The position numbers and the translations under genes are program-made. Shown here piece by piece: positions 942 through 26,012 of a stretch of DNA of 64,000 nt. Within the stretch, counting starts at the first letter, position 1. Each line of letters opens with the position of its first letter. Origin of the DNA: Flavobacterium sp. TR2. Its GTDB lineage: Bacteria; Bacteroidota; Bacteroidia; Flavobacteriales; Flavobacteriaceae. Where the stretch lies: assembly GCF_025252405.1 (NCBI RefSeq), contig NZ_CP104307.1, positions 496,001 to 560,000 on the forward strand. The letters are read 5' to 3'. Below the pieces are notes generated by a model. The model saw only the letters and a list, made by a program, of their open reading frames with translations. It searched no databases and was not told the origin of the DNA.

Positions 942-947
942 TTAAAC

Positions 948-1430
948 TCATTTTAAAAAACCATTAAACCTAGTTTCAAGTTCGATAAAGTCCTCAATGT
1001 TTATCAGATTGATAGTAGGACCGTTGTTGGTTGTAAACTTTAATGCTTTAATCGCTTTTATTAAATCAGCCATAAGCTTTTTTAAAGTCTCATTTTCCTT
1101 TTGCAGCAGAAAGCCGGAACTATCAGCCTCAAATTTGCAGGATTCGATTACCAGGGAAAGCTTTTCAATTTCGCTGGTATTGACAACAGCCGCATTATTT
1201 TTATTGATAAAGACCACTAAGACCATACTGCCGACCTTCGGAAACAATACAAGTCCGCCTGTTTCGCTTTCCGCCTGCAGACGCACATTATAAATTTCTG
1301 CTGTATCATCAACCGGTTTCACGTTGACGGTTTTTTCGTCTTGGTCTATCTCCATCACCTCACATACTTTGGCGTAAACTTCATCACTAGTCTGTGTCAG
1401 GTTCTGTAATGTATCTCTTAAATCGCTCAT
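948..1430 (-). CDS. Baseplate spike-like protein (gpV/gp45 type)
   Basis: A 160-residue protein. An N-terminal OB-like beta region (VCEVMEIDQDEKTVNVKPVDD, then GGLVLFPKVGSMVLVVFINKNNAAVV) is followed by a beta-prism-like stretch and a C-terminal helix. This is the layout of short gpV/gp45 spike proteins at the tail tip. It directly follows the hub-like gene with a 4-base gap. The call relies on the 'P-vGs-Vlv-f' motif and operon position. Confidence 0.65.
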   Translation of the reverse strand: MSDLRDTLQNLTQTSDEVYAKVCEVMEIDQDEKTVNVKPVDDTAEIYNVRLQAESETGGLVLFPKVGSMVLVVFINKNNAAVVNTSEIEKLSLVIESCKFEADSSGFLLQKENETLKKLMADLIKAIKALKFTTNNGPTINLINIEDFIELETRFNGFLK

Positions 1431-1434
1431 TGTC

Positions 1435-2409: not shown

Positions 2410-2923
2410 CCTGTTTTATTTTTATTTCGTATGGCGTATCACTTAACAGCTGCAATTGAAAAGCCTGACGGTTACTGTGGGTTTCCTGCAGCATTCCGTA
2501 CGATTTGACAACAACGCTTTTAATTCCAAAAAGCGTGAGATAATCGCTCTGCACTTCCAAGCTATCCTTGATCTTTAAAAAACTTAAGAGCTCCTGCAGT
2601 TTTTCTACTGGATAATCCCTGCTTTTCTCAGGGTCTGTTTCACTGTAATTTGTTACTGCGCCATCGATCTGGATGGTATAATCCCCTTCGCTTATATATT
2701 CTTTTATGGTTCCGTCTCTTCCCTCCATAGGAGTAGTCACAATATTTCTTTCCATGTTTACTGTGGCAATGCATTCCACAAATTCAATCCGCTTTCCTTT
2801 GTACTGAAATGCTAAGCTTGTAAGTGTTGGAACTCCATAATGTTCAGAACCTTCAAATTTAAAGTCCAGACTTGCGGGCTCTAATGGTTTATATGTCCGG
2901 ACATTCACAAAATCGAAAACCAT
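2390..2923 (-). CDS. Phage tail protein, DUF6046-like
   Basis: A 177-residue protein between tape measure and hub genes. The pattern 'VPTLTSLAFQYKG--IEFVECIATVNMERNIVTTPMEGRDGTIKEYIS-GDY-I-IDG' resembles proteins I know as DUF6046 from phages of Bacteroidota, which occupy the place of the tail-associated DNA-circularisation protein of Mu. Its ATG overlaps the tape-measure stop codon (TAATG), so translation is probably coupled. The biochemical role is unknown. Confidence 0.65.
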   Translation of the reverse strand: MVFDFVNVRTYKPLEPASLDFKFEGSEHYGVPTLTSLAFQYKGKRIEFVECIATVNMERNIVTTPMEGRDGTIKEYISEGDYTIQIDGAVTNYSETDPEKSRDYPVEKLQELLSFLKIKDSLEVQSDYLTLFGIKSVVVKSYGMLQETHSNRQAFQLQLLSDTPYEIKIKQDAGFSF

Positions 2924-5277: not shown

Positions 5278-5286
5278 TTTTATGCT

Positions 5287-5294
5287 TATATTTG
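5287..5294 (+). promoter_or_regulatory. Promoter -7 element of the moron gene
   Basis: TATATTTG fits the Bacteroidota -7 consensus TAnnTTTG exactly and lies 18 bases upstream of the ATG at 5313. No good -33 TTG is visible at the usual distance. It is the only consensus promoter element I found pointing against the minus-strand tail operon. Confidence 0.5.
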
Positions 5295-5312
5295 TATAAT
5301 AAAATTTCAGAT

Positions 5313-5474
5313 ATGAAATATAAATACACCGCCAAACCTCTGTTTTACGTGCTTGTAGCAAGTATTACGCTAGCGTGTTTTATTCCAATCTTACTTCCGG
5401 TTGTTTTGGGTTTTTGGGTTGTGTATGCGCTAATCAATTTTGCGAACACCATTTTTAAGGAAAACAGATCTTAG
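5313..5474 (+). CDS. Small membrane protein, candidate prophage moron
   Basis: A 53-residue protein (MKYKYTAKPLFYVLVASITL...) with two closely spaced hydrophobic segments (about residues 9-25 and 26-44) and a charged end (FKENRS). It lies on the opposite strand to all flanking tail genes and exactly fills the 193-bp gap between the tail-chaperone extension and the tape-measure start, overlapping the chaperone stop by a few bases. It has its own -7 promoter element. This is the layout of a moron expressed in the lysogen, for example a superinfection-exclusion membrane protein. The function is inferred only from this layout. Confidence 0.55.
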   Translation: MKYKYTAKPLFYVLVASITLACFIPILLPVVLGFWVVYALINFANTIFKENRS

Positions 5475-6132
5475 TCAAGTCCGAACAGGTTTCTGAACAT
5501 TTCGGCCTGATTCTCCAGGCGCCATCTTTCCAGCCACATCGCTTTCGCGTAATAATCTCCCCATTGGGTAACCTGCAATTCTTTTGGATTGATTTTAAAG
5601 TTTGCCATTATAATGGCATCGCCCTGCATCAATCCCACATCATCCCCGCCTTGTTCCAGACGGGCTACAAGTTTTTTACATCAACAGAAAAAGAGTTCAT
5701 GTGCTTGGCCAATCCTTCAAGAGCTTTCAGTTTGGCGAAATCGCGTCCGCTGATCTCATCGTCCGCTTTAATGATGCAGTTGTCATAAAGTGCGACCGTT
5801 CCTTTAATTTCAGAGTTTTTGCCAATTGCTCCAGTTGCTTCCAGAACTTCAAAAGTCGGTTCCTTAAAGATTGCGTGAAACATGTGTTTACTTTCGTATT
5901 CTTCCTTAGCATTTTGCAATTCCTCATATAGTTTCGGTTTCTGAGCTTGAAGTTTATCGCCCTGATCTAGTAACAAAGTTTCCAAATGATTGATTTTTTC
6001 TTTTAGCTCAACACCGCCCTGCTGAATTGTAACGATTACCAAAAATCCGTGCTGCCTTTTTAAAGTAGCGATTTGGGATTCAGTCAATCCGCATATTAAT
6101 TTTTCTTTTACTTCTTTTACTTTGTTTTCCAT
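5471..6132 (-). CDS. Tail assembly chaperone, -1 frameshift product (GT type)
   Basis: After slipping at A AAA AAC the frame continues for 66 codons from 5671 to a stop at 5471-5473, giving a fusion of about 220 residues. The extension (LVARLEQGGDDVGLMQGD ... LERWRLENQAEMFRNLFGLD) reads as real protein and has no start codon near its beginning. A dual G / GT product made by frameshifting is the conserved arrangement in long-tailed phages, including Mu. The T part normally recruits the tape-measure protein. Translated by hand from the minus strand. Confidence 0.8.
5645..5677 (-). promoter_or_regulatory. Programmed -1 frameshift signal (tail chaperone)
   Basis: Read on the minus strand, the signal is heptamer A_AAA_AAC (5677-5671), spacer TTGTAG including the frame-0 stop (5670-5665), then a 6-bp hairpin CCCGTC / GGCGGG (5664-5659 with 5650-5645, one T:G wobble) with an 8-base loop. 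The phase of the heptamer relative to frame 0 (GTA AAA AAC) is correct for simultaneous slippage. Confidence 0.8.
5665..6132 (-). CDS. Tail assembly chaperone, short (frame 0) product
   Basis: A 155-residue protein (MENKVKEVKEKLICGLTE...), helical and acidic, between tail tube and tape measure. This is where long-tailed phages encode the gpG/gp41-type tail-assembly chaperone that coats the tape measure before tube polymerisation. The frame ends ...VDVKNL-stop directly after a slippery A AAA AAC, so part of the ribosomes should continue into the -1 frame (see the following entries). The start ATG at 6132 is 18 bases before the upstream terminator hairpin. Confidence 0.8.
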   Translation of the reverse strand: MENKVKEVKEKLICGLTESQIATLKRQHGFLVIVTIQQGGVELKEKINHLETLLLDQGDKLQAQKPKLYEELQNAKEEYESKHMFHAIFKEPTFEVLEATGAIGKNSEIKGTVALYDNCIIKADDEISGRDFAKLKALEGLAKHMNSFSVDVKNL

Positions 6133-6149
6133 CTTGTTTTATTGGTTTT

Positions 6150-6185
6150 TAAAAACCTTCCAAATATTGCTTTGGAAGGTTTTTT
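6150..6185 (-). terminator. Intrinsic terminator after tail tube gene
   Basis: AAAAAACCTTCCAAA / TTTGGAAGGTTTTTT form a 15-bp stem with a 6-base loop and flanking A/T runs, just behind the tail-tube stop (6192) and before the tail-chaperone gene. It probably lowers expression of the downstream tail genes relative to the abundant tube protein. Confidence 0.8.
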
Positions 6186-6191
6186 GATTTA

Positions 6192-6608
6192 CTATTCAAT
6201 GTGAGAGATTAACAATTCAAGCTCGACGTCTTTAGACATATCGCCTTCTTTCCAATCGAAAGTGGTTTTCTTAAACTCGCAATTTTTGAGAGTGTGTTTT
6301 ACGATCGGTCCAGTTTCAGGCTGGTACATAACTACAATTGGAAATGGCGCGATATTATGCAGCTTGTTCTTCGGAGCATTGGCCTGCATAGCGAAGACAG
6401 TTCCTGATAAAAGCGTGATTGAGCCGGTTGTCTTTACACGTCCGTAACCGCGCGACACGGGATTTTTGCCCGAACCGTAGATATTTTCTTTTTCCTGTTC
6501 CTCTTCGTACTTAATCGCCTTAATGCCAGCAATTGCACTAGCTGAAACGTTTACCACAATATCAGCCCATCCGTACTCTCGGCCGTTGATTAAAGGTGTA
6601 GTCTCCAT
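6192..6608 (-). CDS. Tail tube protein
   Basis: A 138-residue protein (METTPLINGREYGWADIVVNV...). It lies directly after the sheath gene (3-base gap), the normal order sheath then tube in contractile tails. The length and the beta-rich pattern with 'GRVKTTGSITLLSG' and 'DWKEGDMSKDVELELLISHIE' fit a tube monomer. A strong terminator follows, which fits a protein needed in many copies. Confidence 0.75.
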   Translation of the reverse strand: METTPLINGREYGWADIVVNVSASAIAGIKAIKYEEEQEKENIYGSGKNPVSRGYGRVKTTGSITLLSGTVFAMQANAPKNKLHNIAPFPIVVMYQPETGPIVKHTLKNCEFKKTTFDWKEGDMSKDVELELLISHIE

Positions 6609-6611
6609 TTT

Positions 6612-7793
6612 CTATAATTGTAATGTGAAACCAAGATTGACAACGATCTCTCGAAGAACTCCGACAGGCACAATCTTAATTGTAACTTCAAGCTTCGAAG
6701 TCGTCAGCACTTCCTGGTCTGGGTTAATGTTTATTTTAAAACCGCTGATTTCACCGTCACGCTCCATCTGTTCCAATGGAATCGAGGCGATTGCCTCGAG
6801 TGAGGCGATTACATCCTGCGTCAGATTTCCTGTCACCGGATCAACATAAATCGGTCCCGAAACTTTAGGCAGCAATTTGATGTAGACGCCTCTCTGCGCT
6901 TTATCCATTGCGCGGTTAGTTTCGATTGTTGCGAAATCGCTGTCTAAATCTGTAGCCGTGAAACTGTCATTGAAGAAAGTTCCGGTGTAGCCGATATGCT
7001 TAATCATAAAGATGTAGCCTTTGCTGCTGATCGACTGGATTTGTCCAGGAGTAAAGTCGCTTATCAAAGTGCCATCGATAAATGCCGGCACGTCTAATTC
7101 ACGCGCAAGGACATTCCCGCCTGTAAGAGCTTTTGGATAGGCTGTTGTAACAAGGTTCTGCCTTTCTACCCAAGCAATGCTTTCGTGAACCTTAGCTTTA
7201 GACACCGCTCCTAATGCGGCTCCAATGATTCCAACCTTTTTAGTGACAAGCTCAGAAACATAATTTCCGCGCCCAGCGCCATCTTGGCCAATTACAACAC
7301 TAAATCTGTCGTTGCTGAAAGTGTGCAGGTCTGGCAATGCCAATAAATTGGCTGACGTTATCCCGTGCATAGAGTAAAGCAGTTCCAAAGGCATATTTAA
7401 GATGGCCAGCTCGTCTAGCACATCTTTAATCGCTCCCGATGTTTCCGCCAAATCAGCAAAAACAGTTATAAGGTCGACAACTCCAATCTGTCTGATTTTT
7501 GCCTCAGCAAACTGCTGCAATTGCTTTACGGCAACATATTCGCCATCATTCAGCAATGAAGAAACAATGTAAAGCTTCGAACCAGGATTAATTCTGAAAT
7601 ATTCCGACACGTGATAATGCATGACAGGATTTGTCAAAGCCGTCACTCCAATACCAGCTAAACCTTCAACCTCGTTAAGAAGCGTTTTGGCGATGTTGGC
7701 CTCACCGTAGACGATCAGACCGCTTATGTGATCTTCGCCCGCAAGCCTCTTGGCTAAGCCTCCGCCTTGTCTATTAAATTGAACTGTGTTCAT
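6612..7793 (-). CDS. Tail sheath protein (DUF2586-like)
   Basis: A 393-residue protein (MNTVQFNRQGGGLAKRLAGE...). It has features of the DUF2586 / Mu gpL-like sheath family: an N-terminal 'GGL-k-l-geDHISGLIVYG', a central 'VVIGQDGAGRGNYVSEL' and a C-terminal sheath domain with 'GYIFMIKHIGYTGTFFNDS' and 'I-ETNRAMDKAQRGVYIKLLPKV-GPI-VDP-TGNL'. It forms the contractile outer tail. Position just before the tube gene supports the call. Confidence 0.85.
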   Translation of the reverse strand: MNTVQFNRQGGGLAKRLAGEDHISGLIVYGEANIAKTLLNEVEGLAGIGVTALTNPVMHYHVSEYFRINPGSKLYIVSSLLNDGEYVAVKQLQQFAEAKIRQIGVVDLITVFADLAETSGAIKDVLDELAILNMPLELLYSMHGITSANLLALPDLHTFSNDRFSVVIGQDGAGRGNYVSELVTKKVGIIGAALGAVSKAKVHESIAWVERQNLVTTAYPKALTGGNVLARELDVPAFIDGTLISDFTPGQIQSISSKGYIFMIKHIGYTGTFFNDSFTATDLDSDFATIETNRAMDKAQRGVYIKLLPKVSGPIYVDPVTGNLTQDVIASLEAIASIPLEQMERDGEISGFKININPDQEVLTTSKLEVTIKIVPVGVLREIVVNLGFTLQL

Positions 7794-7796
7794 GGA

Positions 7797-8273
7797 TTAT
7801 TTTTTATTGGTTTTAGGCTCAGCAGCTTTTACATCAGCTTTTGCAGCCGGTTCTTGTGGCGCAGCTGGTTCCTGTTGTTTTGCTGGCTCTTGCGATTGTT
7901 CTGGCACAGCTGGTTCTTGCGGTTCAGAAGATGCAGCCGGTTCTTGTGGTGCAGCTGGTTCTTGTGGTGCAGCCAATTCAGCTGTTAAAACTCTATTTGG
8001 GAATGTTTCAGGGTCAAACGGGTCTGTATTCACAACAGTAAGATTCGGCGCCACAATTTCTGCAGTAACATCAATATTGTTTAAATCTGCGCTTTCAGCC
8101 TCTTCCGTTTCGTCCGATTCCTCAACCTCTGATCTGTAGACAGGTGCGACTGATTTATTTTTCAAACCTTTTGCATGATTGGCAGCGGCATTTTCTGTAA
8201 AAAATGGCTCACCATCAGCAGTCTGGTAATACATATCCAGATTTGGATTTGCTTTAAAAATTTCGTTTTTCAT
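7797..8273 (-). CDS. Phage protein with C-terminal Pro-Gln-Glu-Pro-Ala repeats
   Basis: A 158-residue protein. The N-terminal 35 residues (NPNLDMYYQTADGEPFF, then ENAAANHAKGL) form a short conserved-looking segment. The C-terminal 60 residues are a low-complexity run of PQEPA-type repeats ending in lysines. It starts one base after the spanin-like stop and precedes the sheath gene by 3 bases. The repeats explain the Ala/Gly/Cys-rich shadow frames on the other strand. The function is unknown; a structural or fibre-like accessory role is a guess. Confidence 0.6.
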   Translation of the reverse strand: MKNEIFKANPNLDMYYQTADGEPFFTENAAANHAKGLKNKSVAPVYRSEVEESDETEEAESADLNNIDVTAEIVAPNLTVVNTDPFDPETFPNRVLTAELAAPQEPAAPQEPAASSEPQEPAVPEQSQEPAKQQEPAAPQEPAAKADVKAAEPKTNKK

Positions 8274-8274
8274 G

Positions 8275-8793
8275 CTAAACGGGTTTAAAGATTTTGATTA
8301 AAAATTTGATTAGGTAGTAAAGGGCAAGGGTAAGGAAGACACGCCCGCAGAAAATCTGGAACTTTTCCCACCATGTGAGCGGCTTTTTAATGTAATTGGT
8401 ATGCGTAACGGTAACCTTTTGGATGTCGGTCTTGTAAGTGTCTTTCCACTGCGCAAAAAGTTTTTGGGCTTCCGCCTGACAATCGACTTTAAGCTGATTG
8501 TCCTGAATATTTACTTTAGGAGCCTTTAAGCTTTTCCCTGGCGTTGCGACAGGTTCGCCCTTGAACTTGACTTTTCCGTCCTTGCATTCAAGCCATGCAT
8601 TGTAATAGCTGCTGTCCTGCAGGATTTCGAAAACTGTGTCTCTTACAACTACTTTGGTCGTAATTGTGTTTACTTCTGATTTTTCAGGTAAAGGAACGCC
8701 GCTGCTTTTACAGGAGACTAGCGTTCCAATGGCCAAAAACAAAAAACTAAAGTAAAATAAGCAGAGTGTGATTTTATTGGGTTTATTCTTCAT
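8275..8793 (-). CDS. Candidate unimolecular spanin (lipoprotein with C-terminal TM)
   Basis: A 172-residue protein with a lipoprotein signal peptide (LFLAIGTLVSC, lipid Cys near residue 28), a periplasmic region of about 105 residues, and one C-terminal transmembrane helix (VFLTLALYYLIKFLIKIF) ending KPV. Anchors in both outer and inner membrane are the defining layout of u-spanins, which fuse the two membranes at lysis. It follows the endolysin gene by 24 bases, and a TM protein of holin type lies upstream. The topology is seen; the function is inferred. Confidence 0.7.
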   Translation of the reverse strand: MKNKPNKITLCLFYFSFLFLAIGTLVSCKSSGVPLPEKSEVNTITTKVVVRDTVFEILQDSSYYNAWLECKDGKVKFKGEPVATPGKSLKAPKVNIQDNQLKVDCQAEAQKLFAQWKDTYKTDIQKVTVTHTNYIKKPLTWWEKFQIFCGRVFLTLALYYLIKFLIKIFKPV

Positions 8794-8817
8794 GTTTAAT
8801 TGCTTTTTAAATGGGCT

Positions 8818-9276
8818 TTAAAATCTGATAAAACCCTTCATTTGTGATATTTTGCGATCGTATCGCCTTGCGACTTCATAACCTTCACGGCTTCCTATAT
8901 TATTGGTATTTCCTTCAATGGTCTGCAGCTTTCCGTTTGGCAGAAGCTTTTCGACAAATCCGGTATGTCCTGCGCCTTTGCCAAAATCCATAATAAAAAA
9001 GTCTCCTGGCTGCGGTGTGGCTACTCTGTATTTTGCCATCTTGCTGTACATATCCAAAACACCGGCTGTTTTTGCAAGTGGGTTTTCAACGTTCAGCTCA
9101 GTCGAGGCTGATTTTACTGACCAATAAACGAAAGCCATGCACCACGCATAACCCTTTCCTAGTCCCACTGATTTGAGATATTTTTCAACCGCTGGTCCAG
9201 CATTGCTGTTTTTGGGTATTTCCTGTACGCCGATTTGGCTTTGGGCTATTTCAAGTGCTTTATTTCGTAGTGTCAT
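8818..9276 (-). CDS. Endolysin, CHAP/TIGR02594-type amidase
   Basis: A 152-residue protein. 'ALEIAQSQIGVQEIPKNSN' at the start, the Cys motif 'GYAWCMAFVYWSVKSA' (Cys46) and the His motif 'GAGHTGFVEK' (His104) followed by 'IEGNTNN' match the TIGR02594 group of cysteine amidases/endopeptidases that cut peptidoglycan at host lysis. There is no signal peptide, so export depends on a holin. The ATG lies inside the upstream gene (17-base overlap). Confidence 0.88.
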   Translation of the reverse strand: MTLRNKALEIAQSQIGVQEIPKNSNAGPAVEKYLKSVGLGKGYAWCMAFVYWSVKSASTELNVENPLAKTAGVLDMYSKMAKYRVATPQPGDFFIMDFGKGAGHTGFVEKLLPNGKLQTIEGNTNNIGSREGYEVARRYDRKISQMKGFIRF

Positions 9277-9559
9277 GGGTCTTTCCGTTTAATTGTTTGA
9301 ACTTTTGCAGCTCATCAACTAACTGCTGATTTATAAGCATCAATTCCTTATGCTGGATTTCCATGTGCTTGATAGTATCATAAGCTGCGGTCAGTCTTGT
9401 AGCCATATCGTCGAGCATTTCCCGATAATATTTTACAGCCGTTACGGCGTTATCAAGTTCAGCGGCTCTATTTTCCGCTAGGTTTTTTCTTTTAGAAAAC
9501 AGCCAAGTAATTAATGCTCCAAAAAATGCGGTCAGAGTTGGGTATGCAAATTGTTCCAT
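9260..9559 (-). CDS. Holin-position membrane protein with coiled coil
   Basis: A 99-residue protein with one N-terminal transmembrane segment (YPTLTAFFGALITWLF) followed by a long helical coiled-coil region (about residues 28-92). It overlaps the endolysin start and heads the lysis cassette, which fits a holin or holin-associated protein. Canonical holins usually have more or longer TM segments, so the exact role stays open. It is separated from the capsid gene by a terminator. Confidence 0.6.
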   Translation of the reverse strand: MEQFAYPTLTAFFGALITWLFSKRKNLAENRAAELDNAVTAVKYYREMLDDMATRLTAAYDTIKHMEIQHKELMLINQQLVDELQKFKQLNGKTHDTTK

Positions 9560-9577
9560 TTATAATTTTTGGGTTTT

Positions 9578-9608
9578 AAAAATGGCTCAGAACAGCAGAG
9601 CCATTTTT
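9578..9608 (-). terminator. Intrinsic terminator after major capsid gene
   Basis: AAAAATGGCTC / GAGCCATTTTT form a perfect 11-bp stem with a 9-base loop, 10 bases behind the capsid stop codon. The flanking A/T runs make it work in minus direction between the capsid gene and the lysis genes. Confidence 0.85.
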
Positions 9609-9618
9609 TATAGTGATC

Positions 9619-10542
9619 TTAAATGATTGCTCCAATTTTCTCAGCTCTGAAAGGAGTTGCTAAGAAATAGTGACGATAAGACAGATCATTTGTTTGTGTT
9701 GACGGGTTATTTTTAGCCTCAGCAAAATACTGTTTTGTATTACCTGTCTTTTTAGCAATACCAGTAAGCCCAAATACAATTGAACCCGGTCTGTCAGTTC
9801 CGCCTGGAACAGAACCGTATGCTTTTTTAACACCTGCAGAAGTGAAGTACGGCATATTTTCGTAGGTGTATAAATAGAATCCTGCGATTTTTGGCGCTGG
9901 CTGTCCTTCACTGTAATTAACAAGCTTGTCACCAAAATTTTTACGATCTAACAATAAATCATTCCAGTGATCTTCTGTTAAAACAAGACGTCTATCTTTA
10001 AGCGGAAACTTACCTGATTTGCACGCTGCCTTAAGCCTCACTAAATCATCATAAGTTAATCTTGGACGCGTGCCATCCATTAAAGGAGCATCTGTTCCGT
10101 TTATACCAGTAGCAAAAATGACTGGTGTTTTAGTAGTATGTGACTGTGGAGCAATTGAGTGAATAGCTTTACCATATTTCTCCGCTAAGATTGCTCTTAC
10201 TGAGCTTTTAGTAACAGTATCAATTTTATCATAAGACGCTCCCATGATTTGATCGTCAGAAACAGTCACTACTTTAGTTTGATACTTGTCCAGCGTAAAC
10301 TGCAATGAACCGTCTGTATATTGCTGTACTGGAATTGGATAAGTTGTATTGTTGATTAAAACATCAACATCAAAATCAGTAGCTGCAATATGAATAATGT
10401 TAGATTCAGTTGCGGTATTCTCACCAACTAGAGACACATCCGCGTCTAGCTCTGCTACGCCATCAAGCCAAGGCGCTTGATCTGATTCATCTAAGTTTGT
10501 GATAACACGATCTAACCAAATTTCAGGAAAATTTGCTGGCAT
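9619..10542 (-). CDS. Major capsid protein
   Basis: A 307-residue protein (MPANFPEIWLDRVITNLDES...) directly after the protease/scaffold gene (4-base gap). This is the standard position of the major head protein (Mu gpT). 'GTRPRLTYDDLVRLKAACKSGKFPLKDRRLVLTEDHWNDLL' and 'GFYLYTYENMPYF' are typical of the HK97-fold capsid proteins of phages of Bacteroidota. The strong terminator behind the gene fits very high expression. Confidence 0.85.
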   Translation of the reverse strand: MPANFPEIWLDRVITNLDESDQAPWLDGVAELDADVSLVGENTATESNIIHIAATDFDVDVLINNTTYPIPVQQYTDGSLQFTLDKYQTKVVTVSDDQIMGASYDKIDTVTKSSVRAILAEKYGKAIHSIAPQSHTTKTPVIFATGINGTDAPLMDGTRPRLTYDDLVRLKAACKSGKFPLKDRRLVLTEDHWNDLLLDRKNFGDKLVNYSEGQPAPKIAGFYLYTYENMPYFTSAGVKKAYGSVPGGTDRPGSIVFGLTGIAKKTGNTKQYFAEAKNNPSTQTNDLSYRHYFLATPFRAEKIGAII

Positions 10543-10546
10543 ATTT

Positions 10547-11002
10547 TTATTTTTTTACGTTAAACATTTTGTTGTACTCGTCTGGATTACTGTTTTTAAA
10601 AGCCAATTGTTCATTCAGACTTAATTTTTGAAAATCTTCTTTTGTGGCCACTCCAATAGATACAGGGGTAACCGTTTGATTGGCTAAAGTGGTTTTAGAT
10701 GGAATTGAATCCAGAGTAGTCTTAAGAATAGAAAGGCTGGCTTTTCCAAGAGCTTCGAACTCTTCTCTTTTTGGAGCTGCAAATTTTCCAGCCAGCTGTC
10801 CAGCATCAAGCAATGCTTTTAATTCTTCGGCTTCCTGGTTTTCTTTTTCAGTCTGCATGGCCAATAATTTGCCCTTGTTTTCTGCATTCTCTTTTGATAA
10901 TTTTAATACAGCAGTTTCAACTGCCTCAACATCCACCTCTGGTGCTGTCTTATCAAAACTTAAAGCTGTCAATGCAGCAATTGATAGTGTAATTTTTTTC
11001 AT
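10547..11002 (-). CDS. Internal scaffold product (Mu Z-like nested start)
   Basis: An in-frame ATG at 11002 (NNMKKITLSIAALTALSF) sits exactly at the border between the protease and scaffold parts, after a Pro/Thr-rich linker (IPPTQTRTLDLNP). Starting there gives a 151-residue scaffold-only protein. In Mu, gpZ is made from such an internal start in gene I. The start is an inference from the domain border; no strong ribosome-binding signal is visible. Confidence 0.5.
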   Translation of the reverse strand: MKKITLSIAALTALSFDKTAPEVDVEAVETAVLKLSKENAENKGKLLAMQTEKENQEAEELKALLDAGQLAGKFAAPKREEFEALGKASLSILKTTLDSIPSKTTLANQTVTPVSIGVATKEDFQKLSLNEQLAFKNSNPDEYNKMFNVKK

Positions 11003-11524
11003 ATTATTTTTAGGGTTTAAATCCAACGTTCTGGTTTGGGTTGGCGGTATGGTTTCACCTTCTGTAGGCATAATAGACAAGCACAATTTTTTAACCTCTT
11101 CATCCTTTAAGAGCTCGCCTTCCTGGTTGTAAAGACGGATTGAATTTGCATTTGAAGGAACTGCGACAATAGAGCATTCGTAAAGCTCGCATTTGGTCAT
11201 TATCAGTTCATCGCCAATAATCTGCAAGTCCTCACGGTTAAAAGAGATACCCATTGAACATGTCTTTATGAACTCACGTTCGACTTTTCCGGCAACCAGC
11301 GCCGCATCTTTGTCGTCCATATCGAAAACAGGTTCGCCAAGAAGCAGGTCCTTATCGACTGTTACGTTTTCCCATCGTCCAAGAACATTGCCTGTTGAGT
11401 TCCAATGGTTGTTTAGCATCATTGGATTTTTTTTGAACCTCTTCAAACTGATTCCAGATGTGACAATTCTAAATCCGTAACTGTTGACCTGATTCTGATC
11501 ATTAAAAACAAAAGGTTTTGGCAT
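10547..11524 (-). CDS. Prohead protease fused to scaffold (Mu gpI-like)
   Basis: A 325-residue protein. The N-terminal half looks like an S78-type prohead protease: 'MLNNHWNSTGNVLGRWE' with a candidate His, 'GEPVFDMDDKDA', 'FIKTCSMGISF' with the candidate Ser, and 'MTKCELYECSIVAVPSNANSI'. The C-terminal half is a helical, acidic scaffold (ENAENKGKLLAMQTEKENQEAEELKALL). Protease and scaffold in one gene upstream of the capsid gene is the Mu I/Z arrangement. It heads the minus-strand late operon. Confidence 0.82.
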   Translation of the reverse strand: MPKPFVFNDQNQVNSYGFRIVTSGISLKRFKKNPMMLNNHWNSTGNVLGRWENVTVDKDLLLGEPVFDMDDKDAALVAGKVEREFIKTCSMGISFNREDLQIIGDELIMTKCELYECSIVAVPSNANSIRLYNQEGELLKDEEVKKLCLSIMPTEGETIPPTQTRTLDLNPKNNMKKITLSIAALTALSFDKTAPEVDVEAVETAVLKLSKENAENKGKLLAMQTEKENQEAEELKALLDAGQLAGKFAAPKREEFEALGKASLSILKTTLDSIPSKTTLANQTVTPVSIGVATKEDFQKLSLNEQLAFKNSNPDEYNKMFNVKK

Positions 11525-11707: not shown

Positions 11708-12145
11708 ATGGCAATAAAAAAGGCACTTGAAAAGGAGTACGCAAAGTCCTTATATCTAGCGGGCGGACTAACCCAGAAGGAGATCGCAGAAAGGGTTTCC
11801 GTCACTGAAAAAACACTGGCAAAGTGGATTAAGGAAGGAAAATGGGACAGCTTGAAAAAATCGCTTCTGACCACCAAACAGAATCAGCTGTCATTCTTAT
11901 ATGACCAGCTCGATTTTTTGAACACTGATATTTCAAAAAGAGATTTTAAAGTCGCTGTCGGCAAAGAGGCAGACACCATTATTAAGATTACCGCTTCCAT
12001 TAACCGACTTGAAACTGAAACATCAATCGGCGATACTGTGGAAGTGGCCAGACACTTTATTGAGTTTGTGCGCCAGCAGGATTTGGAGCTTGCAAAAACC
12101 ATTACAAACCTTTTTGATGTATTCATAACCGCAAAAATGAAATAA
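11708..12145 (+). CDS. Terminase small subunit-like protein
   Basis: A 145-residue protein. The N-terminal helix-turn-helix (LYLAGGLTQKEIAERVSVTEKTLAKWIKEGKWD) is the DNA-recognition domain found in small terminases (gpP N-terminus type) and is followed by a long helical region. It is the first gene of the plus-strand late operon and overlaps the large terminase by one base (TAATG). It would mark phage DNA for packaging. Confidence 0.8.
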   Translation: MAIKKALEKEYAKSLYLAGGLTQKEIAERVSVTEKTLAKWIKEGKWDSLKKSLLTTKQNQLSFLYDQLDFLNTDISKRDFKVAVGKEADTIIKITASINRLETETSIGDTVEVARHFIEFVRQQDLELAKTITNLFDVFITAKMK

Positions 12146-13677
12146 TGGCGAGCGCAGAGGATAAAAAGTATTACGAACTATGGCAGCAGTTTCGGGACAA
12201 CACCCGAAAGGCGACACCTATTGACCTAAATGAAAGTTTAGCCGATAAGCAGAACCGTATTGCCAGATTGGAGAAACATCCGGAACAATGGTTTAAATAC
12301 TATTTCCCTAATTTCTACACCTCAGAACCTGCACCGTTTCATATACGCTCAACACAGAGAGTTTTAAATCTTGCCGAACTTTATTTGGTGCGCTCTTGGT
12401 CACGTGAGCTTTCGAAAACGGGGCGTACCATGATGGAAATTCTTTATCTAGTAATTGCTAAGAAAACGAAAAAGAACGTTTTAATGGTTTCCAGTACCTA
12501 CGATAATGCTGAGCGCTTGCTGCTGCCTTATAAATCAATCCTAGAGGCTAACAACAGGATTATAAACGACTACGGCGAGCAGGAAAGTTTAGGCTCATGG
12601 GAAGCAGGCGAATTTGTAACCAAGCAAGGCGTTTCTTTCCGTGCTCTTGGTGCAGGACAGTCACCGCGTGGTACCAGAAAAGATGAAGTGCGTCCGGATG
12701 TTATTCTGATTGACGATATTGATACAGACGAAGAGTGCCGAAATCCGGCCAGAATCAAAGCGAAAGTAAAATGGCTGGAAGAAGCGTTATACGGTACCCG
12801 CTCAATTTCGAACGGCCTTTTATGGATTGCCAACGGAAACATAATTGCAAAATACTGTTGCATTACTGAAATGGCTAAGGTTGCCGATTTTCATGAGATC
12901 GTAAACATTCGTGATGAAAAAGGCGTTTCTACATGGCCACAGAAAAATACAGAGGCGTTAATTAACCGTGCACTTTCAAAAATATCTTGGGCTGCTCAGC
13001 AAAAAGAATATTTCAACAATCCAGTAAGCGAGGGTGATGTATTTAAAGAGGTTCATTACGGTAAATGTCCGCCTGCAAGTTCCTGCGAATCTGTTATAGT
13101 TTATGCAGACCCTTCAACATCTAATAAAGATAAAGGAGCAAGCAAGCAGGCTTCTTACAAAGGTGTTGGCATTATTGGAAAAAAAGGCGCTAAACGATAT
13201 ATATACAAAGTCTGGCTTAAACAGACCAACAATGCAACTTTTGTAGGCTGGCTCTTTGAAGCCTATCAATGGCTTATAGAGCATAAAGTTGATATTAAGC
13301 GCATTTACATTGAAAACAACTCGCTTCAAGACCCGCACTACGAACAGGTTATCACTCCTGAAATCAGAAAGCGTAATAAAGAACTTGGCGTGTATCTGCC
13401 AATTTCAGAAGATACGCGTAAAAAACCTGAAAAGTTTTTCAGGATTGAAGGAACGCTGGAACCGATACACTCAAAAGGAAATTTGATTTTTAATATCGAT
13501 GAAAAGGAGAACCCGGATATGGTTGTTATGGATGGTCAGATGTTAGGAGTTTCAGAGAATGCAAAGACAATGGACGGACCCGACTTCGTTGAGGGCGGAT
13601 GCTGGCTTTTAGACAATAAATCAGTCCCAATGGAAGGCGGTTATGCTTACGGCGGAGGCAGTAACAGAAAATTTTAA
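12145..13677 (+). CDS. Terminase large subunit
   Basis: A 510-residue protein. The ATPase domain shows an atypical Walker A-like segment (SRELSKTGRT, about residues 88-97), a coupling-like region 'ALGAGQSPRGTRKDEVRPD', and Walker B 'VILIDDIDTDEE'. The nuclease domain starts at 'VIVYADPSTSNKDKGASKQASYKGVGIIG' with acidic metal-binding residues and continues with 'IYIENNS'. It is Mu gp28-like by position and packages DNA into proheads together with the upstream HTH protein. Confidence 0.9.
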   Translation: MASAEDKKYYELWQQFRDNTRKATPIDLNESLADKQNRIARLEKHPEQWFKYYFPNFYTSEPAPFHIRSTQRVLNLAELYLVRSWSRELSKTGRTMMEILYLVIAKKTKKNVLMVSSTYDNAERLLLPYKSILEANNRIINDYGEQESLGSWEAGEFVTKQGVSFRALGAGQSPRGTRKDEVRPDVILIDDIDTDEECRNPARIKAKVKWLEEALYGTRSISNGLLWIANGNIIAKYCCITEMAKVADFHEIVNIRDEKGVSTWPQKNTEALINRALSKISWAAQQKEYFNNPVSEGDVFKEVHYGKCPPASSCESVIVYADPSTSNKDKGASKQASYKGVGIIGKKGAKRYIYKVWLKQTNNATFVGWLFEAYQWLIEHKVDIKRIYIENNSLQDPHYEQVITPEIRKRNKELGVYLPISEDTRKKPEKFFRIEGTLEPIHSKGNLIFNIDEKENPDMVVMDGQMLGVSENAKTMDGPDFVEGGCWLLDNKSVPMEGGYAYGGGSNRKF

Positions 13678-13680
13678 ACT

Positions 13681-14106
13681 ATGTTTTTAGGAAAAGAAGA
13701 TTTAGGCAGCGCAATTTATGGCTACCAGGTTGACCAGATCACCGAAGGAAATGACGATTTAGTTATGCAGGCCATTGGCGCTGCGGTTCAAGAAGTGGGC
13801 GGTTATCTGTCCGGCGCATCGTCTTACGACGTTCCCGCAATATTTGCGCCAACGGGCACCGCAAGAAACCCTTTGCTGGTAACGCATACCGTGACCGTTG
13901 CAAAATGGTACCTGGTTGAACTATGCAATGCAGACATTATCTACGAGCAGGCAAAAGAAAGGTACGACCGCGCCGTCGCTTGGCTGGTAAAATTATCAAA
14001 AGGCACTGTAAAATTAGACAATCTGCCAACTATTCCAATCGAAGACCAGGAAGACGAATTGGACGGTTTTGGCAATGGTTCACGAGTAAAATTTAATCAC
14101 GAGTAA
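13681..14106 (+). CDS. gp36-like protein (DUF1320)
   Basis: A 141-residue protein. 'DQITEGNDDLVMQAIGAAVQEVGGYLSG-YDVPAIF' followed by 'LVTHTVTVAKWYLVELCNA' and 'YDRAVAWLVKLSKGTVKLDNLP' is the DUF1320 pattern of Mu gp36, thought to act in head or head-tail completion. It lies 3 bases after the large terminase. Confidence 0.85.
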   Translation: MFLGKEDLGSAIYGYQVDQITEGNDDLVMQAIGAAVQEVGGYLSGASSYDVPAIFAPTGTARNPLLVTHTVTVAKWYLVELCNADIIYEQAKERYDRAVAWLVKLSKGTVKLDNLPTIPIEDQEDELDGFGNGSRVKFNHE

Positions 14107-14107
14107 T

Positions 14108-14362
14108 ATGGTACGCAAAAAAGAATGGTCGGAATTTAGACGCACAGGACTAGTCCTTATTATAAACCAGATACTGCATGTCTTTGGCTGGGCTTTAGTT
14201 TTTGATATTGAAAACGACGAGATAAAAAACGTTTATCCCGCACGCGTGAAATTTAGAGGTTTTGACGCCAAAAGCGCTTCGGATGCTTATTTAAAGGTCA
14301 CAAACTACCTAAAAAAAAATATTGACGAATTAGACAAGGAGATTAAAGAAAATGAGCAGTAG
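14108..14362 (+). CDS. Small phage protein, unknown
   Basis: An 84-residue protein. 'TGLVLIINQILHVFGWALVFDI' and 'VYPARVKFRGFDAKSASDAYLKVTNYLKKNIDEL' suggest a small alpha/beta domain with a helical end. It sits between the gp36-like and portal genes in the packed late operon and overlaps the portal start by 11 bases. I recognise no function. Confidence 0.6.
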   Translation: MVRKKEWSEFRRTGLVLIINQILHVFGWALVFDIENDEIKNVYPARVKFRGFDAKSASDAYLKVTNYLKKNIDELDKEIKENEQ

Positions 14363-15605
14363 AAAAGTTAGATCATTAGCAAAAAAAAATATAGAATTGG
14401 CAGCAAAAAAAACAGCTGCCGCACCAAGCTCTGCGGGTTTGGTAAATCAGATCGCTCCCGTTTCAATGTCGCGCGTACGTCAGGATGTTTTGACATGGAA
14501 CACGGCGCTTACAATGGCGCGTAAAGCGGAAAAGCCAAAACGCCATCTGCTCATGAACCTGTACGATGAAATTTTTATCGACGGGCTTTTGCGCTCACAG
14601 GTCAGCAACCGTTTCTTAAAATCTCTGGCGATGAATTTTACCATCACAGACAAAGCGGGGAAAGTGAACGAAGAGCTTACCAATTTTCTCCAGGATAAAA
14701 TATGGGTGAACGAAATCAATAAGGCGATTTTAGGAACAGTTACGCATGCACATTCTGTTGTCGAGCTCTCATGGATTGAAAGCACGAACGGTCAGGCGGC
14801 GGCAGAACCGCAATTGAAAGCCGAACTTATTAAGCGCCAAAACATCGAGCCTAAAGAAGGAATTTTTTACCCGGACTACAGAGAGGACAAAGGCATCAAG
14901 TACCGCGAAATGAAAGAATACGGCACTTGGATTATAGAGTTTGGAGACCGAGAAGACTTGGGATTAATGAACTGCGCTGTACCTCACGTTCTATTTAAAC
15001 GTTTTGCGCAATCCTGCTGGTCTGAACTTTGCGAGATTGCCGGTATTCCTCCACGTGTTATGAAAACGGACACGCAAAATATTGCGATGCTGCGAAGAGC
15101 CGAAAGAATGATGAAAGAAATGGGGGCTGCCGCTTGGTTCATTATCGATGAAAACGAAAAATTTGAATGGGCGGAAGCAACAAAAACGGACGGTGCAGTC
15201 TATCAGAATTTAATGACTTTCTGCAACAACGAATTATCCATGCTTTTCAATGGCGCTGTAATGGGACAGGACACGAAAAACGGCAGCCGTTCAAAAGAAG
15301 CTGCAATGCAGGAAACTTTGCAGACTTTAGTCGATAGCGATCTTTCATTAATTGAGCAGTACTGGAACTCTGTTGTAATTCCTGCGCTTATTAACATTGG
15401 CGTCATATCTAGAGAATGCGTTTTCACTTATCCTGAGAGCAAAGATATTTCTCAATTATGGTCAATGGTAAAAGAAGCCATGCAGCATTACGAAATGGAT
15501 GTTGAATGGATGAACTCAACATTTAGCTTGAAAATATTAAAGCCTAAACAGGCTGCGCCAGCTCCAGGCACAAACCTAACAATTGGAGAAAGTTTTTTCG
15601 TCTAA
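14352..15605 (+). CDS. Portal protein (DUF935, Mu gp29-like)
   Basis: A 417-residue protein with DUF935 hallmarks: 'KRHLLMNLYDEIFIDGLLRSQVSNR' near residues 60-85, 'ILGTVTHAHSVVELSW', 'PHVLFKRFAQSCWSELCEIAGIPPRVMKTDT' and 'GAVMGQDTKNGSRSKEAAMQETLQTLVDSDLSLIEQYWNS'. It forms the dodecameric DNA gate of the head. The frame ends ...GESFFV-stop at a slippery T TTT TTC, so part of the product may carry the next protein as a C-terminal extension. Confidence 0.9.
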   Translation: MSSRKVRSLAKKNIELAAKKTAAAPSSAGLVNQIAPVSMSRVRQDVLTWNTALTMARKAEKPKRHLLMNLYDEIFIDGLLRSQVSNRFLKSLAMNFTITDKAGKVNEELTNFLQDKIWVNEINKAILGTVTHAHSVVELSWIESTNGQAAAEPQLKAELIKRQNIEPKEGIFYPDYREDKGIKYREMKEYGTWIIEFGDREDLGLMNCAVPHVLFKRFAQSCWSELCEIAGIPPRVMKTDTQNIAMLRRAERMMKEMGAAAWFIIDENEKFEWAEATKTDGAVYQNLMTFCNNELSMLFNGAVMGQDTKNGSRSKEAAMQETLQTLVDSDLSLIEQYWNSVVIPALINIGVISRECVFTYPESKDISQLWSMVKEAMQHYEMDVEWMNSTFSLKILKPKQAAPAPGTNLTIGESFFV

Positions 15606-15636
15606 GCCCCAAAGCCTATAATCAGTATTTTGGGGC
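15593..15636 (+). promoter_or_regulatory. Candidate -1 frameshift signal (portal to gpF-like)
   Basis: Slippery heptamer T_TTT_TTC at 15593-15599 is in correct phase (AGT TTT TTC). A 6-base spacer with the portal stop follows (GTCTAA, 15600-15605). A perfect 8-bp hairpin comes next: GCCCCAAA (15606-15613) with TTTGGGGC (15629-15636) and a 15-base loop. All three parts of a canonical bacterial -1 frameshift site are present at the spacing usually seen. Confidence 0.75.
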
Positions 15637-16492
15637 ATTGCATAACCGTTTGAATTTTCTGTACGACTGCAACTGCGAAGACTGCAAGGCAGAGAAAAGT
15701 ACAATAACGCTGGCACAGAAAGACCGTTTTAAAGGGGTTTTAAAAGCTGTTGAAAAAGCATTTAAAAAATTGCATCAAAATGGAAAATACAGCCCTGAGG
15801 ATTTAGCCAAGACGAAAGAATATAAAAATCTGATCTCGGAGACTAGTGCCATCTTTGATTCTGCAATTGTCGATAACGATATGCCCGAAGCAATGACGGA
15901 GAGCCTTAAAAAAGATGTCTTTATATTCTCGGGGCTTAAAACCAATGCACAGCTATTGGAAGCTTCGAAGCTCCTGCTGAACGAAGACAATCAATTGAAA
16001 TCGTTTAGCCAGTTTTCAAAGGACATTAAAAAAATTAAGGAAGACTACAACCAGAACTATCTGGAAGCTGAATACCAGTTTGCAGTTTCCTCGGCGCAGT
16101 CTGCAGCAAATTGGGCTAACGTATCAAAAGATTATGATCTGCAATACCGAACAGCCAATGATGACAAAGTAAGGGCAAGCCACGCAGTTCTGCATAACAT
16201 TACTCTTCCTGCAGACGATGATTTTTGGATTTCTTTTTATCCGCCTAACGGCTGGCGATGTCGATGCACTGCGCCTCAGGTTCGAAAAGGAAAATACGAA
16301 GTGAGCGACAGCAAAAAAGCTATTGCCAGCGGTGAGAAAGCCACGACCCAAATCGATAAGGACGGGAAGAATAAGCTTGCAATATTCAGATTTAATCCTG
16401 GAATGTCAAAAAAGATCTTCCCGCCTGAGCATCCATATTCAAAGGTTGCGGGAGCTAAGACCGCCGTAAAAGATTTAAAAGAACTTAAATGA
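15599..16492 (+). CDS. gpF-like minor head protein, probably reached by frameshift from portal
   Basis: The -1 frame opens at 15548 with no ATG or GTG. Read from the slip site it gives RLSPKAYNQYFGALHNRLNF..., 297 residues, already protein-like before the only near start, a TTG at 15638 (284 residues). The C-terminal half carries the Mu F / SPP1 gp7 head-morphogenesis domain: 'YRTANDDKVRASHAVLHNITLPADDDFW' and 'YPPNGWRCRCTAP'. Such proteins bind the portal and enter the head in few copies. The portal fusion would be about 713 residues. Alternative: reinitiation at the TTG. Confidence 0.75.
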   Translation, partial: RLSPKAYNQYFGALHNRLNFLYDCNCEDCKAEKSTITLAQKDRFKGVLKAVEKAFKKLHQNGKYSPEDLAKTKEYKNLISETSAIFDSAIVDNDMPEAMTESLKKDVFIFSGLKTNAQLLEASKLLLNEDNQLKSFSQFSKDIKKIKEDYNQNYLEAEYQFAVSSAQSAANWANVSKDYDLQYRTANDDKVRASHAVLHNITLPADDDFWISFYPPNGWRCRCTAPQVRKGKYEVSDSKKAIASGEKATTQIDKDGKNKLAIFRFNPGMSKKIFPPEHPYSKVAGAKTAVKDLKELK

Positions 16493-16980
16493 TGGACTTT
16501 AAAGCACTAGAAAACAAGATCATTAACGATGTCGCTGTCGAAGCTGCTGACGAATTTGACAGGAATTTTGAACGTAAAGCCTTTTTTAACCAGCATTGGC
16601 CTGCTGCAAAAATGCACAACAGCAGAGGCTCCCTATTAAACAGGACAGGCAGTCTGAGACGTTCTATAAGATATACCATTTCAAGCGGAAACATAAGATT
16701 TACAAGCTCTCTGCCCTATGCGTCCATTCACAACCAGGGCGGTGAAATAATTGTAACTGCCAAAATGAAAAAATACTTCTGGGCGATGCATTATAAAACG
16801 TCGGGAACTGAGGCAGAAAAATGGAAGAGTTTGGCTCTAATGCCGTTAGGGCATCGAATAAAAATTCAAAAACGGCAGTTTATCGGCAATCATCCGGACA
16901 TTACAAAAGCCGTAAAAAAGATTGTAGATGAAAACGTAAAAAGATTTAGCGAAGACCTTTTAAGACAATTTAGACGATGA
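16489..16980 (+). CDS. gpG-like virion morphogenesis protein
   Basis: A 163-residue protein. 'FNQHWPAAKMHNSRGSLLNRTGSLRRSIRYTIS', then 'SSLPYASIHNQGGEI' and 'KIQKRQFIGNHPDI', is the pattern of Mu gpG-like phage virion morphogenesis proteins (tail completion / head-tail joining). It overlaps the gpF-like stop by 4 bases (ATGA). Confidence 0.85.
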   Translation: MMDFKALENKIINDVAVEAADEFDRNFERKAFFNQHWPAAKMHNSRGSLLNRTGSLRRSIRYTISSGNIRFTSSLPYASIHNQGGEIIVTAKMKKYFWAMHYKTSGTEAEKWKSLALMPLGHRIKIQKRQFIGNHPDITKAVKKIVDENVKRFSEDLLRQFRR

Positions 16981-17429
16981 AAAAATATTTAGAAAGCATA
17001 CAGGCAAAAATAAGCGAAGTAAGCCAGATAGCCTATGTTGATGAAGACTGGGGACAGCTTGACGAATACAGCAAAAACATGCCTGTCAAATGGCCGTGCT
17101 GTCTGCTGGATGTGTCAGCGGTGAGTTATGCCGATACTGGTCTTGATCGAACTTTGGTTCCGCAGAACAGACAGGAAGGCACGGCCAACGTGATTTTGAC
17201 TTTTGCCAATTTAAAATTGACTAATACAAGCTTTAACGCTCCCAAGCTTCAAAAAGACAATGCTTGGCAGCTTCATGATTTAATCGAGATCGTCCACGGA
17301 AAACTGCACGCCTGGTCACCGGTTGCAGGGTCGGGAAAGCTAATCCGAAAATCGTTTAGAAGGATAAAAAGGGATGATGGAATCCAGCAGTATGAAGTTA
17401 TATACGCCATCAAATTCCAAAACGTTTAG
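16977..17429 (+). CDS. Phage head-tail or tail completion protein, unknown
   Basis: A 150-residue protein. 'MPVKWPCCLLDVSAVSYADTGLDRTLVPQNRQEGTANVILTF' and 'NAWQLHDLIEIVHGKLHAW' resemble small tail-terminator-like proteins that follow gpG, with an alpha/beta pattern. It is coupled to gpG by a 4-base overlap and is the last gene of the plus-strand late operon. It ends tail-to-tail with a minus-strand gene (4-base overlap). The role is inferred from position. Confidence 0.65.
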   Translation: MKKYLESIQAKISEVSQIAYVDEDWGQLDEYSKNMPVKWPCCLLDVSAVSYADTGLDRTLVPQNRQEGTANVILTFANLKLTNTSFNAPKLQKDNAWQLHDLIEIVHGKLHAWSPVAGSGKLIRKSFRRIKRDDGIQQYEVIYAIKFQNV

Positions 17430-25073: not shown

Positions 25074-26012
25074 TTATGCAGTCAGTAACCTTGGCATTCC
25101 TAATATGGTTCTTACAAAGTCTTCTGTGAGTGGTTGACCAGTTCTGTCGGCTTCTTTCATTGCAGGAACCAGAACATCATGCAATTCTCCGTAGTTATCG
25201 CAATTTTGTTTTAAAAATCTGATAAGTGACTTATCTTCAATTTGTTCTAAAAACATTGAAAAACTTCTGTCGATGCTAGGCAATTCTCTAATACCAAATT
25301 TGATTCTTCTATAAAATTGTGGTATTCCTGAACGGTTCTTTTTTCTTAGTTTGTCAAGATTGTCTGTTAACTGGCTTGTTCCAATAAGTGTGATGCCACA
25401 AATTCTAATTAAAGCATCGTATAATTCTTTCATAGAACAAAGCGCGGGCTGTTTCATATACTCACACTCATCAAAAATTAGGTGTGGTTTTAATCCTTCA
25501 AGTCTTAATTGTTTTAGCTTTTTAGCTATTTCGCCAATTTTCTTGCTTTTGGTTTTCGGCGTTGCGATTTTTAACGTATCTATAATCTTATCAAGTAAAT
25601 CGCCAATTGTATCAAGAGAACCAACAACTATTTTAAAAGTATCAACAGGATTGGCTTTTAGAAACATATCAGAAATATAAGTTTTACCAGAACCCGTTTC
25701 GCCAATTATAATATTTGTTAATCCGTTTTCTTTTGCGTCCTCTAGAGTTGAAAGCATCCTGTAAAGCTGAGGCGTTTCTTTCATGCTCCAATACTCCTTT
25801 TTTAAAGAGTGCCCAATGAACTCAGCAATCAGTAAATACCATTTATCCTTAATTTCTGATTTACCCACAGTAGTTTCGCCTTTTCTAATACTTGAGATAT
25901 AACTCTCGTTAACACCTGAACGCTTTACGATTTCATTTGCAGAAATACTATGTAAATTGATGTATTGGTTCAAAGCCTCAGTAATCTGCTGTTTTTGTGT
26001 TATTGTTATCAT
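25074..26012 (-). CDS. MuB-like transposition target-DNA ATPase
   Basis: A 312-residue protein. The N-terminal HTH (ISANEIVKRSGVNESYISSIRKGETTV, about residues 23-49) precedes an AAA+ ATPase with Walker A GETGSGKT (104-111), Walker B 'PHLIFDECEYM' (about 185-195) and sensor 'ITLIGTSQL'. HTH plus AAA+ directly after the transposase is the MuB layout: MuB binds target DNA, activates MuA and gives target immunity. The gene overlaps the transposase stop by 4 bases. Confidence 0.88.
   Translation of the reverse strand: MITITQKQQITEALNQYINLHSISANEIVKRSGVNESYISSIRKGETTVGKSEIKDKWYLLIAEFIGHSLKKEYWSMKETPQLYRMLSTLEDAKENGLTNIIIGETGSGKTYISDMFLKANPVDTFKIVVGSLDTIGDLLDKIIDTLKIATPKTKSKKIGEIAKKLKQLRLEGLKPHLIFDECEYMKQPALCSMKELYDALIRICGITLIGTSQLTDNLDKLRKKNRSGIPQFYRRIKFGIRELPSIDRSFSMFLEQIEDKSLIRFLKQNCDNYGELHDVLVPAMKEADRTGQPLTEDFVRTILGMPRLLTA

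Follow-up and report, generated by a model that had tools for sequence, protein, structure and literature searches.

The portal gene of a Mu-like (transposable) prophage in Flavobacterium sp. TR2 is predicted to end in a programmed -1 ribosomal frameshift site, which would join the portal protein to a gpF/gp7-like minor head domain encoded directly downstream; we put the probability of this reading at about 0.92. The prophage lies in a stretch of 64,000 nucleotides (nt) of the genome (contig NZ_CP104307.1, positions 496,001 to 560,000, forward strand), here called the window, and all window coordinates count from its first letter. Many other Bacteroidota viruses appear, from their sequences, to conserve a slip signal where the portal gene ends, such that some subunits of the portal ring would carry gpF. 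The evidence is comparative: the signal, its phase, its spacing and a covarying stem are conserved, the gpF frame has no good alternative start, and homologues exist in which the two proteins are fused in frame.

The portal-gpF junction in the window

The portal open reading frame (ORF; 14352..15605, forward strand, as are all features of the junction) encodes 417 amino acids (aa) and was identified by profile and by predicted fold. It matched the full PF06074 (Portal_Mu) domain (E 5.5e-64, profile positions 1-335 of 336), and the top PDB matches of its AlphaFold model (mean predicted local distance difference test score, pLDDT, 82.4), for which the alignment took in some loci selected by sequence pattern, were the portals of JBD30 (E 1.2e-10, template modelling score, TM, 0.55) and Mu (E 9.6e-9, TM 0.54). 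No chain matching the portal or gpF was found by sequence search of the PDB. Past the Pfam domain, the residues beyond 392 lack secondary structure in the model (pLDDT about 56-67) and form a linker-like tail that ends at the slip site.

The 3' end of the gene reads GAA AGT TTT TTC GTC TAA and its 0-frame product ends in ...GESFFV. The sequence contains a slippery heptamer, T_TTT_TTC, in the phase of the portal (15593..15599), followed by the 6-nt spacer GTCTAA (15600..15605), inside which the portal stop is situated (15603-15605), and by a putative stimulatory stem of 8 bp with the 5' arm GCCCCAAA (15606..15613) and the 3' arm TTTGGGGC (15629..15636), predicted from the sequence, RNAfold and covariation in relatives; a ninth pair, G-U, is possible at 15614/15628. 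Shifted by -1 against the portal, the gpF frame is open from 15548 to 16492 and hence through the slip site. The part read after the slip (15599..16492, 297 aa, starting RLSPKAYNQYFGALHNRL...) matched PF04233 (Phage_Mu_F; E 6.4e-14, 53.1 bits, gathering cut-off 29.6) and phrog_23416 (E 1.2e-50). The first possible start codon in this frame is the TTG at 15638..15640, with further TTG codons at 15650 and 15770; an ATG comes only at 15881, and no GTG precedes it. An earlier note, made from the letters of the window alone, had proposed a gpF gene with no ATG or GTG at its start and an in-phase T_TTT_TTC with a 6-nt spacer and an 8-bp hairpin, and these were read at 15593-15636 as described; its estimate of a fusion of about 713 residues and roughly 80 kDa agrees with the computed values of 713 aa and 80.9 kDa.

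RNAfold gave -13.3 kcal/mol for positions 15600-15642 (z -2.27, with 6 of 200 shuffles equally good), and a 103-nt fold around the hairpin gave no signal (z -0.33). Because the longer fold is not unusual, the window sequence alone is weak evidence, and with only the short hairpin scoring the argument relies on comparison.

Conservation of the heptamer

Relatives were gathered from genomes, viral contigs and phage records by portal homology, without use of the motif; seven phage records were chosen by hand among 60 tblastn matches and Mu was added by accession. Removal of identical junctions left 140 unique portal loci, the window included. The gpF domain was encoded in the -1 frame in 102 of these, in the +1 frame in nine (Mu, lotta8-1, FPSV-S1, L027, L251, L255 and three distant ones) and in a continuous portal-gpF ORF in eight; in three the genes were split in the same frame, and in 18 gpF was not found (11 phylum-level portals, three cut or incomplete loci, and L021, L246, L248 and L257). 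Anchoring on the portal stop missed the junctions of Hankyphage, TCUEAP3 and L022, because in these the stop falls after or inside the hairpin, and anchoring on the heptamer recovered all three. A further 120 loci selected by pattern (L113-L232), together with L031-L033, were excluded from all motif counts except that of where the pattern falls. The named relatives nearest to the window portal in the portal tree are from Flavobacterium.

An in-phase X_XXY_YYZ heptamer was present within the overlap in 97 of the 102 -1 junctions, most often T_TTT_TTC (77), followed by A_AAA_AAG, A_AAA_AAA and A_AAT_TTT (four each), T_TTT_TTT and G_GGA_AAG (three each), and C_CCT_TTC and A_AAA_AAT (one each). 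It ended 0-9 nt before the stop in 89/102, where 2.2 would be expected at the rate seen in the rest of these ORFs, and the gap to the stop was 3 nt in 78 of the 97. T_TTT_TTC itself occurred 0-9 nt before the stop in 71/102 and at none of the 33,354 other in-phase sites of these portal ORFs. These counts are inflated by shared descent, most T_TTT_TTC sites being common by descent; the heptamer is nevertheless kept in loci whose portals are 21-26 % identical to that of the window (L022, TCUEAP3 and Hankyphage p00). All but one of the 97 heptamers fit the classes V_VV.A_AA.R and H_HH.U_UU.Y, for which efficient slippage in Escherichia coli is described (PMC4066793; statements from cited papers refer, here and below, to the excerpts of them that were available).

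In Hankyphage p00 and Elizabethkingia phage TCUEAP3, T_TTT_TTC is followed by a 6-nt spacer and a stem, with the portal stop after or within the hairpin; in these records, which have the T-type signal, no joined coding sequence (CDS) is given at the junction and gpF is annotated from a downstream ATG. Among the 120 matches listed from a scan of IMG/VR viral contigs for TTTTTTCGNYTARGCCCC, the pattern coincided exactly with a portal stop in 110; in two the portal was elsewhere and in eight no portal was found in the surrounding DNA.

Conservation and covariation of the stem

With the 5' arm placed exactly 6 nt past the heptamer, the stem reached 5 bp or more in 89 of the 97 junctions, 6 bp or more in 85 and 7 bp or more in 74; the corresponding rates were 34, 16 and 6.4 % after mononucleotide shuffling and 30, 13 and 4.5 % at 2,387 downstream control positions in the same loci. 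When arms were swapped between sequences, an arm found its own complement in 80/81 cases and a swapped one in 685/2,446 (28 %); this test does not presuppose pairing and is not circular. The arms themselves vary, with 60 distinct pairs found (GCCCC/GGGGC, GCCCT/AGGGC, GGGCTG/CAGCCC, GCTCCTC/GAGGAGC and others). In 12 sequences the second pair was G-C in place of C-G, and in 11 the third was; this tally is partly circular, being taken over stems found by a search for pairing.

Two alignments were examined for covariation. Alignment A4 was mixed, made up of 49 of 80 sequences chosen by the analyst, with some arms misaligned; in it 72.7 % of cells were paired, against 31-57 % with slid partners, and covariation was matched by 0/500 shuffles. 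Alignment A5 comprised ten GGGCTG-like stems picked by eye after A4 was seen, omitting L019, L087 and L090, which have longer loops; all 70 of 70 cells paired, four of seven pairs showed compensatory changes, and 0/500 shuffles were as good on four of five measures, with 12/500 on the fifth. The switch from GCCCC to GGGCT alters the encoded -1 residues from S-P to R-A, which argues that RNA pairing, not protein sequence, is conserved at that stem. A downstream structure 5-9 nt from the heptamer is thus predicted with support from covariation, weaker in A4.

Alternative explanations

The gpF protein could be made separately if its translation were coupled to termination of the portal and began at the TTG at 15638 or at some other weak codon. 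The TTG codons at 15638 and 15650 are just past the stem, an ATG or GTG occurs within 40 codons of the slip in 28/97 junctions, and a separate protein is made from an ATG in the distant lotta8-1 and FPSV-S1 (gpF, in the +1 frame) and in the equally distant Mu (gp30). However, in the other 69/97 the slip is followed by more than 40 codons free of ATG and GTG, the -1 frame is already protein-like (often FFRLSP...) ahead of any start codon, and separate initiation leaves the in-phase heptamer and the covarying stem unexplained; we regard it as very improbable. The possibility that the split arose through faulty sequencing or assembly, or through decay of the gpF gene, has still less in its favour. 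Homopolymer sites are error-prone, and Brevibacillus phage Emery, discussed below, may be such a case, as six of its relatives read on unbroken, but recurrence refutes error or decay as a general account: 102 unique loci, gathered without the motif from genomes, phage records and metagenomes, share this frame relation, and the stem covaries. We give this explanation next to no credence.

Long runs of A or T, of about nine or more, are a known substrate for transcriptional slippage, in which RNA polymerase would slip on the homopolymer and a fraction of the mRNAs would carry an in-frame fusion. The run in the window is only six T, the longest local run is likewise six at 76 of the 77 T_TTT_TTC sites, and C_CCT_TTC, A_AAT_TTT and G_GGA_AAG have no long homopolymer (runs of 3-4) whilst still allowing tandem slippage; phase, spacer and stem also match ribosomal slippage. 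Slippage of the polymerase is therefore a poor candidate in general, ranking slightly below separate initiation. What speaks for it is a side clade, that of Winogradskyella phage Peternella (L024-L026, L030 and L236), with A10-A11 runs and stems of 0-5 bp where measured, to which L027, with an A11 run and gpF in the +1 frame, also belongs; for this clade transcriptional slippage is a fair alternative to a ribosomal slip. The +1 position of gpF in L027 could follow from slippage of this kind. Runs of 9-11 A occur in most A-type junctions, and in L239, L282 and L286 runs of A9-A10 are accompanied by stems of 6-9 bp.

Several observations weigh against programmed -1 frameshifting or narrow its reach. 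A canonical heptamer is missing from five of the 102 -1 junctions (that of L063, which keeps the stem, and those of the distant L256, L261, L262 and L272), and no stem of at least 6 bp was found in six of nine A-type junctions or in L278. Some re-initiation is possible in the 28 junctions with an ATG or GTG at most 40 codons from the slip. In A4, two of the five measures do not beat the shuffles (pairs changed on both sides, 127/500; pair types, 260/500) and slid partners nearly match the true partners on covariation. Relatives with in-frame fusions indicate that limiting the copy number of gpF is not essential everywhere, which weakens the case for copy-number control, and the portal-gpF fusion is a prediction from sequence comparison.

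The -1 frameshift that the earlier note had read at the junction is nevertheless strongly supported: heptamer, spacing, stop position and covarying stem are kept in about a hundred motif-unselected loci, and in-frame fused ORFs exist. The comparison of junctions by which it was to be checked gave the heptamer in 97/102 and a stem of at least 7 bp in 74/97. The case named as contrary to it, a gpF gene with a clean ATG and no heptamer, is present in the distant lotta8-1, FPSV-S1 and Mu and was not shown by the near relatives examined.

Proposed mechanism and its consequences

Under programmed frameshifting, most ribosomes would finish the 417-aa portal, and in a fraction of passes both tRNAs would re-pair one base back on T_TTT_TTC, aided by the stem 6 nt downstream, with translation continuing in the -1 frame to give the 713-aa portal-gpF protein. 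In solved portals the C-terminus faces the capsid interior of the ring. Fusion at this end would hold gpF inside the head, at the portal vertex to which SPP1 gp7 is brought by its binding to gp6; the rings would be mixed and the slip rate would set the dose of gpF. We infer that slippage occurs, and at what rate, that the fusion enters virions and that rings are mixed, and the control of gpF copy number by frameshift efficiency would be a further step from these. The fusion would be marked by the peptides LSPK, AYNQYFGALHNR and QAAPAPGTNLTIGESFFR, and the plain 47-kDa portal by its C-terminus, ...ESFFV.

The minor head protein gpF (gp7/gp30) has a poorly understood role in early infection. If the proposed mechanism is correct, gpF would be placed covalently at the end of the portal that faces the capsid interior, the portal would join the phage structural proteins dosed by recoding, and the usual picture of identical portal subunits would be broken. 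In practice the junction is missed by annotation, as in the Hankyphage p00 and TCUEAP3 records. Among the relatives listed, the size of gpF from the profile match to the stop ranged from about 250 to 500 residues (for example, the gpF ORFs L095:4350-5099 and L052:4317-5819). Variable C-terminal gpF domains may therefore ride on a portal fusion made by frameshifting.

Recoded, fused and separate states

A quick maximum-likelihood tree was reconstructed from 105 portals after removal of L028, of rows that lacked gpF and of 13 T-type rows that were nearly identical; several branches are long, deep placement is unsure, and gains and losses are indistinguishable. On this tree nine or more changes are required to account for the recoded, fused and separate states, and in-frame portal-gpF fusions are interspersed, with at least five gains or losses even when only well-supported branches are used. 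L234, L245, L249, L252, L253, L254 and L283 have a single portal-gpF ORF of about 820-920 aa, which in some reaches the end of the locus. Because in-frame ORFs are interspersed in this way, a portal-gpF fusion is a plausible product, and it is plausible from the sequences that it is made by different routes in different phages.

It seems rather likely that Bacteroidota Mu-like phages as a group build a portal ring of mixed plain and gpF-bearing subunits, their ratio fixed by a -1 slip at the stop (or, in one side lineage, possibly by slippage on runs of A10-A11), and that, given repeated moves between recoding, permanent fusion and separate genes, covalent tethering of gpF is a recurrent output.

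Prophage context and a probable second frameshift site

The portal and gpF are preceded by a terminase gene (12145-13677, phrog_38), a Gp36-like gene (13681-14106) and, between the latter and the portal, an 84-aa ORF, and are followed by a tail-S family gene (16489-16980). A transposase-like gene (phrog_310) is located on the reverse strand at 26009-28141. The prophage has two divergent blocks, one with protease, sheath-like and tape-measure genes (900-11524, reverse strand) and one with the packaging and portal genes (11708-17429, forward strand).

A second -1 frameshift site, in the classical layout of a tail assembly chaperone, is likely at 5471-6132 on the reverse strand, where a 155-aa ORF (phrog_19076) has an in-phase A_AAA_AAC (5677-5671), followed by TTGTAG and a CCCGTC/GGCGGG stem, and an open -1 frame. 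The predicted -1 extension of 66 aa ends at 5471, ahead of the tape measure gene (2923-5361, reverse strand). The portal site has the same layout as this chaperone-like site.

Comparison with known systems

No account of a frameshift between portal and gpF in these phages was found in the literature searched, to the extent of the available texts and with bioRxiv and most subscription papers outside the search. A mechanistic parallel is the tail assembly chaperone (lambda G/GT), in which a -1 slip on X_XXY_YYZ near the end of the first ORF likewise adds a second domain; the same heptamer, T_TTT_TTC, is predicted for the tail chaperones of SPP1 (gp17.5) and Pseudomonas phage PaMx73 (PMC6316719, PMC4378225). 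The present site differs in that portal and minor head genes are involved and in that the prophage has its own chaperone site besides; the pair sits between the 84-aa ORF and the tail-S gene, not just upstream of the tape measure gene as a chaperone would. Recoding also yields a minor, C-terminally extended structural subunit in T7/T3 gene 10, Lactobacillus phage A2 and Listeria phages PSA, A118 and A500 (PMC5009743). In those phages the coat or tail protein is extended, whereas here it would be the portal, and the added domain is one that Mu encodes as a gene of its own.

Portal and MuF functions are carried on one chain, as proposed here, in the in-frame fusions of Microbacterium phages (subclusters EA3, EA5 and EA8 and cluster EB; PMC7302621) and in an 853-aa ORF of a Porphyromonas phage, but in these every subunit is fused and no recoding is needed. 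In PRFect, MuF-like genes of actinophages are among the 'false positive' frameshift calls, and the passage on MuF-like genes in that paper does not describe the portal junction, the signal or its conservation (PMC10885494).

The nearest precedent is gp4/gp5 of phage Emery (2014; record host Brevibacillus laterosporus), in which an unverified slippage predicted by FrameD adds a gp7-family domain; the short product is called a gp7-family protein, not a portal, by its authors (PMC4168068). In the Emery record (L287; KC595516, 3171-5350) a joined CDS is annotated, T_TTT_TTA is in phase, and the added Phage_Mu_F domain scores E 3.8e-12; the upstream ORF is portal-like (Portal_T4, E 4.8e-4, below the family cut-off). 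Emery differs from the present case in its unrelated portal type and in being one phage. As a second frameshift family it was rejected for lack of conservation: among the six relatives examined of 27 found, L288, L289 and L291-L293 have one continuous ORF (724-750 aa) and L290 is open to the contig end. The Emery slippage is perhaps an error or a recent indel.

A portal and a minor head protein are likewise paired in SPP1 (gp6-gp7) and Mu (gp29-gp30). A few copies of gp7 enter the SPP1 procapsid by binding to gp6, and only about 25 % of virions without gp7 are infectious (PMC6316719). In SPP1 and Mu, however, the two proteins are encoded by separate genes and targeting is non-covalent, whereas the frameshift proposed here would deliver the minor head domain as part of the portal chain itself.

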